DNA of 64,000 nucleotides from Chitinophagaceae bacterium (GTDB lineage: Bacteria; Bacteroidota; Bacteroidia; Chitinophagales; Chitinophagaceae): assembly GCA_013140985.1 (NCBI GenBank), contig JABFRU010000023.1, positions 124,001 through 188,000 on the forward strand. Reading direction: 5' to 3'. A program made the translations under genes and the position numbers. The notes beneath the pieces were generated by a model that saw only the letters and a list, made by a program, of their open reading frames with translations, was not told the DNA's origin and searched no databases. This document shows positions 18,749 through 23,104 of this stretch, in pieces (within the stretch, counting starts at the first letter, position 1; each line of letters opens with the position of its first letter).

Positions 18749-20206
18749 ATGAAATACGCTCCCGTTCAGAATTATATCGGCGGAAAATTTGTGAATGCAA
18801 GTTCCGCCCGGACCATCCCCGTTATCTCACCAATCGATGGAAATCATTTGTCAGATGTACCGATGTCAACGGGTAAGGATCTGGATAATGCAGTGAAGGC
18901 TGCCAAAGCCGCTTTCCCCGCATGGAGCAAGATGCCGATCAAAGAAAGAGTGCAGGTCTTTTTCCGTTATAAAACTTTACTGGAAAAACATTTGAAAGAA
19001 CTGGCTGAACTCTGCAGCGAAGAAAATGGAAAGACTTATGGTGAATCAGTTGCTGAAATTGAAAAATGTATTGAGCTGACAGAATTCGCTACTTCATTAC
19101 CACAATTAGTAACGGGAGAAATACTGGAAGTAAGTAAAGGTGTTGAATGCAGAACAGAACATGTGCCGCTGGGGGTTGTGGCGAGCATCGTTCCATTTAA
19201 TTTTCCGGCAATGGTTCCCAACTGGACCATACCGAACGCCATTGCATTAGGAAATTGTATGATCTTAAAACCTTCGGAAAAAGTTCCGCTGTGTTCAGGG
19301 AGATTGGCCGAATTATTAAAAGAAGCCGGCCTGCCGGATGGTGTATTGAATATCGTTCATGGTGATGTGGAAATAGTAGAAGCTATCTGCGATCATCCCG
19401 GCATTGAAGCCGTTTCATTTGTCGGTTCTACCAAAGTGGCTAAGATCGTTTATCAAAGAGCAACAAAAACCTTTAAAAGAGCATTGGCTCTTGGTGGTGC
19501 TAAAAATCATTTGATGGTATTACCGGATGCTATCCCCGGAATGACGGCACAGAATGTGGCTGCATCCATGAGCGGTTGTGCGGGTCAGCGTTGTATGGCT
19601 GCATCGGCCATGATCGGTGTAGGAAATGTTGACAGCATCGTTGCTAAAATATGTGAAGAGGCAAGAAAAATTATTCCCGGAGAAAATCTCGGCGCTGTGA
19701 TCAGCCAGGAAAGTAAAGAGAGAATTGAAAGATATATTGGCGAAGCAGAAAGAGATGGTGCAAAGATCTTAGTGGATGGCCGCAATGCAAAAGTGAAAGG
19801 AAAAGAGAACGGCACTTATGTTGGTCCAACAGTTATTGATTATGTAACACCTGACATGAGTGTGGCTACCGAAGAAATTTTCGGGCCCGTTATTTCTATT
19901 ATGCGAACCGACACAGTTGATGAAGCGTTAGCGATTGAAAATGCAAATCCTTACGGCAATGCGGCTGCTGTATTTACACAGAATGGCGGCATGGCCCGTT
20001 ATATCATTGACAAAGCCAGCGCTGGTATGATCGGAGTGAATGTGGGTGTGCCGGTACCAAGAGAACCTTTTTCTTTCGGCGGATGGAATGAAAGTAAGTT
20101 TGGTGTAGGTGATATTACGGGAAAAAGTTCAATTGAATTCTGGACAAAGTTGAAGAAGAGTACGACAAAGTGGAATGCAGAGGCGGGGGTGAACTGGATG
20201 AGTTAG
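18749..20206 (+). CDS. mmsA: CoA-acylating (methyl)malonate-semialdehyde dehydrogenase
   Basis: 485 residues, aldehyde dehydrogenase fold: NAD-binding region PFNFPAMVPNWTIPNAIALG, GSTKV, catalytic Cys282 in SGCAGQRCMAAS. The general-base Glu of ordinary aldehyde dehydrogenases is replaced by Asn in LGGAKNHLMV, the mark of CoA-acylating MMSDH. It converts malonate semialdehyde to acetyl-CoA, or methylmalonate semialdehyde to propionyl-CoA, with NAD. This is the terminal step of the pyrimidine pathway encoded downstream. The last 36 nt (WNAEAGVNWMS) recur in altered form at 20986-21021. Confidence 0.95.
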   Translation: MKYAPVQNYIGGKFVNASSARTIPVISPIDGNHLSDVPMSTGKDLDNAVKAAKAAFPAWSKMPIKERVQVFFRYKTLLEKHLKELAELCSEENGKTYGESVAEIEKCIELTEFATSLPQLVTGEILEVSKGVECRTEHVPLGVVASIVPFNFPAMVPNWTIPNAIALGNCMILKPSEKVPLCSGRLAELLKEAGLPDGVLNIVHGDVEIVEAICDHPGIEAVSFVGSTKVAKIVYQRATKTFKRALALGGAKNHLMVLPDAIPGMTAQNVAASMSGCAGQRCMAASAMIGVGNVDSIVAKICEEARKIIPGENLGAVISQESKERIERYIGEAERDGAKILVDGRNAKVKGKENGTYVGPTVIDYVTPDMSVATEEIFGPVISIMRTDTVDEALAIENANPYGNAAAVFTQNGGMARYIIDKASAGMIGVNVGVPVPREPFSFGGWNESKFGVGDITGKSSIEFWTKLKKSTTKWNAEAGVNWMS

Positions 20207-20239
20207 AGGCCTCCCCAAACCCCTCGGCTGGAGGGACTT
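20207..20239. repeat. Dispersed GC-rich repeat GGCCTCCCCAAACCCCTC, copy 1
   Basis: Begins directly after the mmsA stop. It contains CCCCTCGGCTGGAGGG, a degenerate hairpin. It is an inverted copy of the repeat at 21761-21793 inside the aminotransferase gene; a third relative is at 33836-33872. Confidence 0.8.
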
Positions 20240-20252
20240 AGAAGGGTCGTCT

Positions 20253-20383
20253 AAGGTCACAAATTGTGACCTTGAACAGAAATGCAGGCTTTAAGGTTGC
20301 AATCTGAAACCTTAAACAAAAATTATGCAGTCACAAATTGTGACCGCATAACGGAAATCTCTAAGGCCGCAAATTGCGACCTT
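20253..20383. repeat. Array of four 21-bp palindromes upstream of the ORF6N gene
   Basis: Units at 20253-20273, 20293-20313, 20327-20347 and 20363-20383 (start-to-start 40, 34 and 36 nt). Unit 1 is a perfect inverted repeat with 10-bp arm AAGGTCACAA. Unit 3 keeps TCACAAATTGTGA; unit 4 has CCGCAAATTGCGA; unit 2 has GTTGCAATCTGAAAC. The AAGG/CCTT outer arms and AAATT centre are mostly constant, while the inner four bases vary, partly in a compensatory way. All lie within the 190 nt between the mmsA stop and the ORF6N ATG (20396). Confidence 0.9.
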
Positions 20384-20395
20384 AAAAAAATAAAT

Positions 20396-20980
20396 ATGAG
20401 AATAATCAAGAGTATCCAAAACAGGATTTATGAGGTCAGAGGTGAAAAAGTTATGCTTGACAGGGACTTAGCAACCTTGTACGAAATTGAAGTAAAGATT
20501 TTAAACCAGGCAGTCAAGAGAAATATCAAGCGATTTCCTAAAGACTTTATGTTTCAACTTTCGAAAGAAGAATTTGAAGAACTGAGGTTTCAAATTGAAA
20601 CCTCAGAAAATGACAAATCTTCAAGGTCACAAATTGCGACCATGAAAACAGGAAGAGGAAGTAATATAAAATACCTTCCCTTTGTTTTTACCGAACAGGG
20701 TGTTGCCATGCTAAGCGGAATCCTGAACTCAGATAAAGCCATAGCTATGAACATCGCCATCATGCGGGCATTTGTAGAAATAAGAAGGGTGCTAATACAG
20801 GAGAATGATCTGCGGGAGCAATTAAAACAAATAAAAGAAAGAATTGGTGAGCATGATGTACAGTTGAACCAGTTGTATGATGCAATGGAAAATTTATTGG
20901 ATGAAAAGGTAGCCCAGAAGAAATGGGAGGACAGAGAAAGGATAGGGTTCAAGGCCAAAAAAGTGGTTGAAGGGAAGTAA
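20396..20980 (+). CDS. ORF6N-domain DNA-binding protein
   Basis: 194 residues from ATG 20396; the frame is open back to 20282 but that part encodes the palindromes. The ORF6N domain (about 8-125) shows YEVRGEKVMLDRDLATLYEI, VKRNIKRFPKDFMFQLSKEE and FTEQGVAMLSGILNSDKAI, a phage-type DNA-binding module related to KilA-N. The C-terminal about 60 residues form a coiled coil (LREQLKQIKERIGEHDVQLN). Two palindromes of the upstream type are embedded in frame, encoding RFQIET and RSQIAT. ORF6N proteins are common in Bacteroidota mobile regions; role unknown. It interrupts the pyrimidine catabolic operon. Confidence 0.9.
   Translation: MRIIKSIQNRIYEVRGEKVMLDRDLATLYEIEVKILNQAVKRNIKRFPKDFMFQLSKEEFEELRFQIETSENDKSSRSQIATMKTGRGSNIKYLPFVFTEQGVAMLSGILNSDKAIAMNIAIMRAFVEIRRVLIQENDLREQLKQIKERIGEHDVQLNQLYDAMENLLDEKVAQKKWEDRERIGFKAKKVVEGK
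20582..20643. repeat. Two palindromes inside the ORF6N reading frame
   Basis: 20582-20606 is a perfect inverted repeat with 12-bp arm CTGAGGTTTCAA. 20623-20643 has AAGGTCACAAATTGCGACC. Their spacing (39 nt, 13 codons) matches the upstream array. Confidence 0.9.
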
Positions 20981-20985
20981 ACGAA

Positions 20986-21021
20986 TGGAATCCGGAAGCG
21001 GGAGTGAATTGGATGAGTTGA
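20986..21021 (+). pseudogene. Remnant: second, diverged copy of the mmsA 3' end
   Basis: 36 nt encoding WNPEAGVNWMS and a TGA stop, against WNAEAGVNWMS and TAG at 20171-20206. 29 of 36 bases agree; four of the seven differences are synonymous or in the stop codon and two change one Ala to Pro. It starts 5 nt after the ORF6N stop, so the ORF6N cassette is bracketed by two mmsA tails. Confidence 0.8.
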
Positions 21022-21042
21022 TCTAAAATTTACATTATTTAT

Positions 21043-21717
21043 ATGAGTACTAACTCAGATTTAAATAAATTAACGGATGCTATCTCAACCCTTAGAGATA
21101 AACCAATACAGATTATTAACAGCAATAAAAACAAAAGAAATTATTTTGCAATTATCACAACCTCAATTGCGATTATTTCAACAACACTAGTTATTATAGA
21201 TAGAGTTCAAAAGCCAAAAGTATTCGGAAAAATCATTAGCATCACACAATGGGATAGTGCATCATCATTCATTTATAGGGGCTATGATAACATCCTTAGA
21301 ACCATACAAGGTCAAAGATTTCTCGTTAAGATATCCTTAGCAGTTTCTAAAAAAGATTTATATTTCAAAGATGCAAATATTGTAGCGATATTCAATGACA
21401 ACAAAAGATATAGAGGTGAAATATACAAGGCACCTCATGAAACCATATTCTCTAAAGGCGAAAGATATATTGTCAACATCCCTCCTAGTGAATTTCTAAC
21501 CTACAATAGTTTTATTGAGAAAGGCAAAGTTTTATTCTTCTATTTAAGTTTTATTATCCCAAATAAGAACGACAAAGAGGTTTTTAAAAAACTTGAACTA
21601 GAACTTATTAGGCCTAATGGCAAAAGCCCAAAAACCCATTTAGAAGTTATTGATGCAAAACAAGTTCTCTTTGACGAAGGTTTAATTCAAGAAGAAGGCA
21701 AATCAACTGAAAAATGA
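21043..21717 (+). CDS. Hypothetical single-pass membrane protein, A/T-rich accessory gene
   Basis: 224 residues. Residues 1-30 are polar, one membrane segment lies at about 33-52 (YFAIITTSIAIISTTLVII), and the remainder is a probable beta-rich extracytoplasmic domain with KPKVFGKIISITQWDSASSF and ERYIVNIPPSEFLTYNS. Codon use is more A/T-rich than in the catabolic genes on either side, suggesting recent acquisition together with the ORF6N cassette. No family recognised. It ends 7 nt before the aminotransferase ATG. Confidence 0.75.
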   Translation: MSTNSDLNKLTDAISTLRDKPIQIINSNKNKRNYFAIITTSIAIISTTLVIIDRVQKPKVFGKIISITQWDSASSFIYRGYDNILRTIQGQRFLVKISLAVSKKDLYFKDANIVAIFNDNKRYRGEIYKAPHETIFSKGERYIVNIPPSEFLTYNSFIEKGKVLFFYLSFIIPNKNDKEVFKKLELELIRPNGKSPKTHLEVIDAKQVLFDEGLIQEEGKSTEK

Positions 21718-21724
21718 AATAATT

Positions 21725-23104
21725 ATGAATACAAAAACAATTTCCAAATTATCAGAGACTAAAACCCCTCCTGCGGAGGGGCTTGGGGAGGCCGTTATCC
21801 AGGATAATCTCGACTACACCCTATTCTCCTGGAGCAAACAAAAAGGCATTGCTCCTATCGCCGTGCAAAGAGCCGAAGGGGTTTATCTCTACGATTATGA
21901 TGGCAAACGTTATATTGATTTTTCATCGGGGCTGATGAATGTGAATATCGGTCATGGCAATCAGAGAGTGACGGATGCAGTTGTAAAACAAATGCAGGAA
22001 GTGGCTTATGTAACTCCCAGTTGTGTTACAAAAGTGAGAGGCGAGCTGGGAAAGAAATTAGCAGAGATCTGTCCCGGTGATCTGAACAAGGCTTTCTTTA
22101 CATTATGCGGCGCAACTTCTATTGAAAATGGGATCAAGCTGGCGAGACTATATACCGGCCGTCATAAAATTTTGACCCGTTACCAATCTTATCATGGCGC
22201 TTCTTATGGTGCGATGAGTGCAAGTGGTGATCCCAGGAGAATTCCTATGGATAGTCAACAAGCTCCCAACTTTGTTCATTTCGATCTTCCTTATTTATAT
22301 CGCTGGGAATATGGCGAAGAGAATTTATTGAAAGAAGCTGTGGCTTCTCTCGAAAGAGTGATCGCCTATGAAGGCCCGGCTACTATTGCCGCTATTTTAC
22401 TGGAAGGAGAATCCGGTTCATCAGGCTGTTTAAAATATCCTGTTGGTTATTTAAAAGCAGTAAGAGAAATATGTAATAAACATGGCATCTTATTAATAAT
22501 GGATGAAGTCATGAGTGGTTTCGGAAGGACCGGTAAATGGTTTGGCTTTATGAATCATGGTATCATCCCGGACATGATCGCTATGGCAAAAGGATTGACC
22601 TGTGGTTATCTTCCTTTTGGTTGTTTGATGGTAAGCGACAAGATCGCTGCAAAATATGATGATACTGTTTTAGCATTAGGTCTCACCTACTCTGCTCATC
22701 CTGTTAGTTGCGCTGCTGCATTGGAAACATTGAAAATTTATGAAGATGAGGAACTCATTGAGAATTGTGTGGCAATGAGCCAATATGTAAATGAGCAGGT
22801 AGAAAAATTAAAACAAAAACATCCGAGCATCGGTGATTTCAGGAATACAGGATTGTTGGGTTGCATCGAATTAGTGAAGAACAGGAAAACAAAAGAACCG
22901 ATGGCGCCTTTCAATGCAAAACCGGATGAAATGACGGTGATGAATAAAGTCGCAGCAAAGATCAAAGAATTAGGCATGTACACATTCGTACGCTGGAGCT
23001 ATATTTTTATTGCACCACCATTGTGTGTAACGAAAGAACAAATTGATGAAGGATTAGCGATCATCAGCAAGGCGATAAAGATCGCAGATGAGAATATTAT
23101 TTGA
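21725..23104 (+). CDS. Class III omega-aminotransferase, likely beta-alanine / 3-aminoisobutyrate transaminase
   Basis: 459 residues, PLP fold type I. GRHKILTRYQSYHGAS, the E-x-x-x-G loop LLEGESGSSG, LLIMDEVMSGFGRTG (Asp260) and PLP lysine K289 in DMIAMAKGLTCGY. In this operon the likely reaction is transfer of the amino group of beta-alanine (from uracil) or 3-aminoisobutyrate (from thymine) to pyruvate or 2-oxoglutarate, giving the semialdehyde used by MmsA. The substrate is inferred from context. Residues 12-23 (TKTPPAEGLGEA) are encoded by a dispersed palindromic repeat and lie before the first conserved segment, so they may be tolerated. Confidence 0.9.
   Translation: MNTKTISKLSETKTPPAEGLGEAVIQDNLDYTLFSWSKQKGIAPIAVQRAEGVYLYDYDGKRYIDFSSGLMNVNIGHGNQRVTDAVVKQMQEVAYVTPSCVTKVRGELGKKLAEICPGDLNKAFFTLCGATSIENGIKLARLYTGRHKILTRYQSYHGASYGAMSASGDPRRIPMDSQQAPNFVHFDLPYLYRWEYGEENLLKEAVASLERVIAYEGPATIAAILLEGESGSSGCLKYPVGYLKAVREICNKHGILLIMDEVMSGFGRTGKWFGFMNHGIIPDMIAMAKGLTCGYLPFGCLMVSDKIAAKYDDTVLALGLTYSAHPVSCAAALETLKIYEDEELIENCVAMSQYVNEQVEKLKQKHPSIGDFRNTGLLGCIELVKNRKTKEPMAPFNAKPDEMTVMNKVAAKIKELGMYTFVRWSYIFIAPPLCVTKEQIDEGLAIISKAIKIADENII
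21761..21793. repeat. Dispersed GC-rich repeat, copy 2, inside the aminotransferase 5' codons
   Basis: Contains the perfect hairpin CCCCTCCTGCGGAGGGG followed by CTTGGGGAGGCC. Inverted relative to the copy at 20207-20239, so the two bracket the ORF6N and 21043 genes. Confidence 0.85.

Follow-up and report, generated by a model that had tools for sequence, protein, structure and literature searches.

Two-fold DNA sites within coding sequence are represented by lac O2 and the internal operator of gal, which are single cases that accompany promoter operators. Palindromes also lie inside open reading frames in the form of Rickettsia palindromic elements, larger mobile elements that occur in many unrelated genes. 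In REP elements with RAYT transposases, the palindromes adjoin the gene for a DNA-binding protein. The closest precedent for the locus described here is BstA. The part of the BstA study on which we draw (Owen et al. 2021, PMC8585504) describes a protein with a KilA-N-like domain and a 63-bp DNA element, aba, that overlaps the start of its gene and provides cognate self-immunity at the DNA level.

The ORF6N gene that we analyzed resembles BstA/aba, as that part of the study presents it, in that a gene for a protein with a DNA-binding domain has a short DNA element overlapping its own coding sequence. Unlike aba as described there, with its 63 bp, its location at the gene start and its terminal direct repeats (CCCGCC), the ORF6N element is a palindrome of about 27 bp inside the codons of the DNA-binding domain. 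It is present in one to three copies, sometimes also upstream, and in bacterial genomes generally. Because the sequence, the position and the type of repeat differ, we do not file the ORF6N element as aba. It differs from lac O2 and gal in that the in-gene site is found across most of the ORF6N family and in several phyla, with upstream copies being optional. Unlike Rickettsia palindromic elements, the site is associated with ORF6N and Bro-N genes, and dispersal within its own genome was not found with the patterns we used. REP/RAYT systems differ as well, since here the site is inside the gene, the protein matches no transposase family, and those same patterns found no dispersed copies. Our literature search covered titles and the beginnings of abstracts, with most subscription journals and preprints outside its scope, and found no description of palindromes in ORF6N or Bro-N genes.

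The window, meaning the whole stretch of 64,000 nucleotides under analysis, contains an ORF6N-domain gene on the forward strand (20396..20980) that codes for a protein of 194 aa with an N-terminal ORF6N domain and long C-terminal helices. A sequence-only reading of this DNA had named the gene as ORF6N, and the match of the protein to PF10543 (E=2.6e-33, 114.6 bits against a curated cut-off of 27.8) confirms that identification. Its upstream neighbor on the same strand (18749..20206) is an aldehyde dehydrogenase gene (PF00171, E=8.9e-134), presumably of the methylmalonate-semialdehyde dehydrogenase type and named mmsA. Four palindromes lie between the dehydrogenase stop and the ORF6N ATG at 20396: AAGGTCACAAATTGTGACCTT at 20253..20273 (0 mismatches), AAGGTTGCAATCTGAAACCTT at 20293..20313 (2 mismatches), GCAGTCACAAATTGTGACCGC at 20327..20347 (1 mismatch) and AAGGCCGCAAATTGCGACCTT at 20363..20383 (1 mismatch), which ends 12 nt 5' of the ATG. 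Two more are in the linker of the ORF6N domain (20561..20680, forward strand, codons 56-95). The first, GAGGTTTCAAATTGAAACCTC at 20584..20604, has 0 mismatches over 21 bp and codes for RFQIET. The second, AAGGTCACAAATTGCGACCAT at 20623..20643, has 2 mismatches and codes for RSQIAT; its counterpart in a relative (L036) is perfect over 19 nt.

All six palindromes start where the sequence-only reading had placed them, four before the ATG and two in frame. Several of its finer points needed correction. The spacing of 34-40 nt applies inside the upstream group and inside the in-gene group; from one group to the other, the starts are separated by 221 nt. The inner four bases had been said to change in pairs on both arms, yet CCGC/GCGA has one mismatch and the unit at 20293 (TTGC/GAAA) is imperfect. 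Three upstream units would indeed read RSQIVT, RLQSET and RPQIAT in the register of the gene, but the unit at 20327 would read QSQIVT. The length of 21 bp is also too short for the family as a whole, in which the symmetry reaches about 27 bp.

The 64-kb window contains 13 palindromes of 20-21 bp with no more than one mismatch, and four of the 13 are units of the ORF6N locus, clustered within 352 bases. We searched the genome of origin (3.86 Mb) with two consensus patterns. AAGGTCRCAAWTTGYGACCTT, allowing up to 3 mismatches, matched the ORF6N locus only and found 3 of the 6 units there, and GGTYNCAAWTTGNRACC, at 0 mismatches, also matched this locus only and found part of the six. Because each pattern finds only some of the units, other arm types could escape this search. 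No dispersed copies were found with the two patterns, and on this result we rejected a dispersed mobile palindrome of the REP/RAYT type. The same genome has a second, truncated ORF6N copy with two stops (L005, contig C69), and a similar palindrome, TCATCATAAATTGTGATGA, occupies the same position in that gene. A CTCCCCAAACCCCTC-like repeat occurs at window positions 20211, 21776 and 33853 with up to 2 mismatches allowed, where 0.1 would be expected by chance. No Bacteroidota-type promoter motif was matched between 20206 and 20396, a result that says little.

We collected 201 loci (L004-L204) from the window's family (147 genomes, 69 with a match), the window's phylum (198 genomes, 58 with a match) and GTDB contigs, where 351 stretches encode a relative and the best 80 of the 351 were used. 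These loci contain 226 open reading frames that match the ORF6N profile. We retained 199 at full length, 188 after identical domains were dropped, and 166 after leaving out 22 genes without recognizable linker anchors, several of which visibly bear the same palindrome motif. The 166 genes comprise 165 distinct ones, L016 and L116 being one gene counted twice. Since the loci are mostly the best-scoring matches of each search, the site frequencies hold for strong members of the family. The genes are also related, so the counts do not represent independent events; least affected by this are the synonymous control and the frame shifts described below.

A 19-nt palindrome with at most one mismatch is present in the linker of 142 of the 166 genes, between the conserved FPxDFMFQL and FTEQG blocks. 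It usually has a CAAWTTG-like center, occurs in one to three copies per gene and lies mostly around nucleotides 190-270 of the gene. Carriers include Chitinophagaceae, Flavobacterium, Niabella, Omnitrophota and Parcubacteria, as well as Melainabacteria, Acidobacteria, Desulfobacteraceae and Bdellovibrionales contigs. Among the copies examined, the in-gene site is also present in all three from plasmids and in one of two labeled as phage. Under a stricter test for a CAANTTG core, 9 of 29 Pseudomonadota loci had in-gene sites, one of them (L283) outside the linker. When scored for palindromes in general (score ≥11), 100 of the 166 genes have one inside, 24 within 400 nt upstream and 9 within 400 nt downstream, which argues that in-gene sites are the rule and upstream sites are optional. 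The association with ORF6N genes thus extends far beyond the window, as the sequence-only reading had proposed, and a check for absence of enrichment at other ORF6N genes found enrichment instead. In two loci (L029 and L232), copies of a CGGTCGCAATTTGCGACCG-like palindrome recur at 128-nt intervals ahead of an ORF6N gene that lacks a significant in-gene palindrome. In L117, L061, L110, L116 and L118, ORF6N reading frames stand in a row, up to five of them in L117.

The palindrome is conserved beyond what the codons need. For each gene, the best linker palindrome was set against those of 200 synonymous recodings that followed its codon usage and local GC content, so that the smallest P value is bounded by the number of recodings (200 for ORF6N and Pseudomonadota genes, 100 for Bro-N genes). 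The mean best score was 11.1 in the real linkers and 3.6 in the recoded ones (166 genes). In 145 of 166 genes, no more than 1 of 200 recodings equaled or exceeded the real palindrome (P≤0.005); 153 reached P≤0.05, and 13 had no palindrome significant at that level. A control stretch further along the same genes reached P≤0.05 in only 5 of 165 cases (100 recodings). Codons alone fail to explain the site, because real linkers beat their recodings and the control stretch rarely does. The recoding also covered the Pseudomonadota loci L273-L293. Among L273-L291, 14 of 19 reached P≤0.005 and 18 of 19 reached P≤0.05 with 200 recodings, and no significant palindrome was seen in L292 and L293, weak ORF6N matches that are barely related by profile.

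The palindrome also persists across reading frames. Most good in-gene sites (135 of 139) are read as R-x-Q-x-x-T, which is what one would see if the palindrome simply followed from a conserved peptide. In L087, L091, L164 and L173, however, it lies one base out of this register and reads LITNCDK, LITICDN or VVANCDH rather than RSQIVT, and the same shift in L223, L280, L281 and L282 gives LVANCDR or LVTNCDRF. The 17 spacings between good in-gene copies, from 30 to 102, are all multiples of three, as is needed inside a gene. Since some genes read the same palindrome in another frame, with NCD for RSQ, it is the nucleic acid that is conserved and not the peptide, and since frame-shifted genes keep the palindrome, the peptide motif is the translation of the site and not its cause. 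R-x-Q-x-x-T is one of at least two readings of the site, and the peptide motif looks like a by-product. A peptide origin is further opposed by the nearly identical consensus upstream, outside the gene, and we rejected it on the recoding result, which shows the palindrome being lost when the peptide is kept. We consider this explanation close to excluded.

How the protein accommodates the site is suggested by an AlphaFold2 model of the window's ORF6N protein (mean pLDDT 75.6). Confidence in the ORF6N fold is high up to roughly residue 65 and again between roughly 91 and 140; residues 72-90, between the helix 57-71 and the strand 96-99, fall below pLDDT 50. In the model, the first in-gene site is at the end of the helix and the second is in the low-confidence stretch. 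The protein thus seems, by this model, to tolerate much of what the DNA site needs, although the site is not wholly in a loop. A fold search of the PDB gave a best E value of 0.23, which we did not use, and no convincing solved relative was found by sequence or fold.

We examined the form of the site by taking every CAANTTG core, which avoids picking sites by their symmetry. In linker cores (n=179), the arms pair at 63-88% of sites over positions 4 to 13, where independent arms would give 34-67%. The 191 cores at other places in the loci pair at 21-34%, about chance. Upstream cores within 400 nt (n=70) are intermediate at 47-69% over positions 4 to 13, and downstream cores (n=45) are lower than upstream ones at 36-51%. 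The half-site consensus is TTTGAGGTCACAA-W and is nearly identical inside genes (139 good sites) and upstream of them (41 good sites), with information dropping after position 13. Good upstream sites occur in all three registers (17, 12 and 12), and there are 12 good downstream sites. A conserved two-fold DNA site in and near the gene is what an autoregulator with an internal operator would be expected to have.

The arms agree within each site to a degree that is not matched between sites. In 39 genes with at least two cores, arm agreement was 0.672 within a site, 0.454 between sites of the same gene and 0.468 between random sites, and the difference of within-site from between-site agreement was positive in 33 of the 39 (Wilcoxon P=3e-6). 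Symmetry is thus maintained in each site separately, and sites of one locus match weakly. The weak matching is seen in the set restricted to symmetric sites, where the 17 internal pairs drawn from one gene agree at 0.619 against 0.565 for random pairs, and the 12 upstream pairs drawn from one locus, some of them tandem repeats, agree at 0.734 against 0.550. Across 26 loci, own upstream and own internal units agree at 0.646, compared with 0.573 when permuted (P=0.001); for positions 4-5, the innermost ones, the values are 0.644 and 0.656, with no likeness above chance. These results, together with the pairing of arms and the recoding test, favor the earlier view that selection acts on a fold or a two-fold site and not on one sequence. 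They speak against another suggestion made with it, that the upstream units are a donor bank for gene conversion of the internal segment. A donor bank is at odds with good upstream sites in all three registers, with upstream spacings in the window (40, 34 and 36) that are not all multiples of 3, and with an upstream-internal likeness that is slight and absent at the innermost positions.

A palindrome within a transcribed region could act as DNA or as RNA. The stems pair over 13 positions, and over up to 16 upstream, with tiny loops, which would suit an mRNA hairpin that controls translation or decay, perhaps while bound by a protein. In an RNA stem under selection, G-U pairs would be tolerable and A-C pairs would not. 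On the coding strand, sites with at most 2 mismatches have 16 G-T and 22 A-C mismatches inside genes and 9 and 11 upstream (25 against 33 together), with no preference for G-U; these counts have P=7e-10 if one assumes, as we did, that 80% of mismatches in an RNA stem would be G-U. Near parity persists in sites with at most 4 mismatches (38:31 inside, 23:19 upstream). The symmetry of the arms is thus without strand bias, which counts against an RNA stem and favors duplex DNA or a process that repairs the arms on DNA. A search of Rfam with window positions 19000-22000 gave no family match, the one hit being far below the gathering score and outside the sites. Control by an mRNA hairpin, which the sequence-only reading had also offered, is disfavored on these grounds, and we regard it as very improbable.

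A process that repairs arms on DNA could be mutational. Template switching homogenizes the arms of inverted repeats in yeast coding genes, according to the portion of a published study that we cite (PMC8604942). A similar process might equalize the arms here, on top of a weaker conserved protein-binding core. This process would fit both the lack of strand bias and the finding, in 33 of 39 genes (P=3e-6), that arms agree within a site more than sites of the same gene agree with each other. Same-gene sites that are no more alike than random ones (0.454 against 0.468) tell against one fixed specificity per protein, which the sites inside genes do not support, and leave room for template switching between arms. 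Template switching would nevertheless leave unexplained why the palindrome persists in one linker across phyla, in different frames and with one 27-bp consensus, and why it is rare in the control families and stretches that we tested. As the main cause of the symmetry, we judge it unlikely.

We asked how specific the palindrome is to ORF6N genes. A pattern allowing arm variants matched in 56 of the 147 family genomes. Among 30 loci listed from this pattern, 19 have an ORF6N gene within the 1.5-kb flanks; of the other 11, 5 are not symmetric, 3 (L209, L224 and L228) look like terminators by eye and 3 (L210, L213 and L220) are unexplained. The palindromes of the three terminator-like loci are long and have the same core, with no ORF6N gene nearby. 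RhuM genes (PF13310) have an in-gene site in 0 of 30 loci. Upstream of one RhuM gene without an in-gene site (L320) are two palindromes of the Bro-N kind, one of which is GGGGTACAATTTGTACCCC.

Bro-N genes were intended as a plain negative control and failed as one, since one type has palindromes of its own. In Bro-N genes of the SIPSPKAE type, some of which are close relatives of each other, 17 of 30 have a significant palindrome (P≤0.01, 100 recodings), placed before the SIPSPKAE block except in one gene (L388). Other Bro-N entries have one in 1 of 29; this is a loose control, in that at least 6 of the 29 (L239, L250, L257, L364, L372 and L374) were read on a reading frame that is not Bro-N and in some the stretch examined may miss the domain. 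The Bro-N palindromes (L235-L264 and L362-L390) occur in two reading frames and with several arm and center types. Their arms are mostly unlike those of ORF6N sites, for example GGGGACAAATTGTCCCC and GGGTACAATTTGTACCC, with GGGG/CCCC, GGGT/ACCC and other types. The center ACAAWTTGT is common to 11 of the 17, and some have a wholly different center. By eye, without a domain alignment, the linker with the Bro-N palindrome appears to correspond to the ORF6N linker. In the families examined, the sites are tied to ORF6N genes and to one type of Bro-N gene, and the arms thus go with the protein family and not only with the host. This is the main reason for proposing the encoded protein as the reader of the site.

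The surroundings of the window's ORF6N gene suggest that it was inserted as a cassette. The 3' end of the dehydrogenase gene (20171..20204, forward strand) is repeated as a second dehydrogenase 3' end just past the ORF6N stop (20986..21019, forward strand). Over their 34 nt the two copies share 85% identity, and the differences, mostly synonymous, look as though two alleles flanked the cassette. Of 165 loci, 22 have direct repeats on either side of the gene that reach the 99% null, where about 1.7 are expected; in two of the 22 (L014 and L031), the repeats are the palindrome copies themselves. In the window, L016, L062, L108, L109 and L114, the repeat covers the end of a long upstream reading frame or lies no more than 12 nt from it. 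In L016, it is at the same dehydrogenase as in the window. In L037, L191 and L198 the repeat likewise covers that end or lies as near to it, with scores near the cut-off.

Certain neighbors recur, under names that we presume from their sequences. A dehydrogenase gene is directly upstream of ORF6N on the same strand in 13 loci, ilvD-like genes are present in 10 and a tyrosine recombinase in 12, upstream in 10 of these. Many loci were chosen by likeness to the window's gene, so that shared descent explains part of this recurrence. Among 25 dehydrogenase loci from the family, one of them cut at a contig end, ORF6N follows the dehydrogenase in 3, the window included, and 13 have an aminotransferase within about 210 bases. 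At one dehydrogenase/aminotransferase junction without ORF6N (L336), the stop of the dehydrogenase gene is closely followed by a single imperfect palindrome, GGAAATCACAATTTGTGATAACC, which may be a relic, a target or chance. Of 161 ORF6N genes, 82 start within 150 nt behind a same-strand reading frame of at least 100 codons, and 40 have a neighbor on the opposite strand.

These observations raise the idea that the palindrome forms a DNA hairpin or cruciform by which the ORF6N cassette moves or homes, much as hairpin-guided mobile elements do. What is kept is indeed the pairing within each site, and both the recurrent neighbors and the flanking direct repeats in 22 of 165 loci fit a mobile cassette. 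The main site, however, lies mid-gene instead of at the ends of the cassette, the patterns used found no dispersed copies in the genome of origin, and family profile searches matched the window's protein to no nuclease or transposase family. With the shared neighbors partly due to shared descent, we find a role in homing improbable.

A second use of such a site would be self-recognition on the model of BstA/aba, in which the ORF6N protein would act against phages or replicons and the in-gene palindrome would spare the DNA that carries it. In PADLOC, the window's protein matches the defense candidate PDC-S05 (E=2.3e-55), and at E≤0.1 its matches are to PDC-S05 models only; in PHROGs, relatives are labeled anti-repressors. 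The different arms of Bro-N and ORF6N genes fit cognate pairs, and BstA, with its KilA-N-like domain and 63-bp element, is a precedent for cognate self-immunity (PMC8585504, in the part used here). The recoding and frame evidence points, by sequence, to a DNA-level element inside the gene. Nevertheless, the portion of the source that we cite (PMC12988326) describes the PDCs, which were derived by guilt-by-embedding, as unvalidated. The ORF6N genes are almost all from bacterial genomes, with 5 matching records among 50,697 from phages and none in one scan of viral contigs, which finds close relatives only. The palindrome is mostly at nucleotides 190-270 and differs from an element at the gene start with terminal direct repeats, as aba is described. 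Self-recognition is possible in our view, if doubtful.

We favor a two-fold DNA site of about 27 bp that is bound by the gene's own ORF6N protein, most likely for negative autoregulation, and we give this reading a probability of about 0.5. The ORF6N protein would bind the site as double-stranded DNA, probably as a dimer, with the half-site TTTGAGGTCACAA around a central A/T. The main copy would lie within the coding sequence, in a variable linker that tolerates extra residues, and would be supplemented at some loci by upstream copies. With protein bound within the gene and immediately ahead of it, the gene would then be repressed, this being the most likely use, with marking of the gene as self the nearest alternative. 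Of the three functions offered in the sequence-only reading, operator sites for the ORF6N protein appear to be the best. Operators normally sit at promoters, which counts against autoregulation from within the gene. The in-frame position might be explained by transfer, since a gene that is moved comes under foreign promoters, often a short way after another gene, and would carry its own cis site with it; a gene landing behind foreign promoters would profit from an internal control site. Binding to a single specificity is also opposed by the low likeness of same-gene sites (0.454 against 0.468 for random ones), so that pairing of the arms or template-switch repair may act in addition.

More tentatively, ORF6N and Bro-N genes might be viewed as mobile genes that are self-addressed, with a DNA address inside the codons of their own DNA-binding domain. 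Protein and address would travel as a unit. The address would stay symmetric while its sequence drifts, and it might change its frame and arms while keeping its place. Such an address could help to distinguish self from non-self DNA, or could hold down expression of its own gene whichever promoter drives it.

A DNA site kept inside coding sequence across phyla and reading frames would show that a protein segment can be shaped by a DNA constraint. Public libraries list ORF6N and Bro-N proteins as anti-repressors or as untested defense candidates. The palindrome is a concrete candidate binding site for both, so that their function becomes directly testable. It also provides a comparison case for aba, the sole in-gene self-recognition element that our literature search found described. 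Together, the sequence evidence suggests that an ORF6N gene may carry its own control or self-recognition site.
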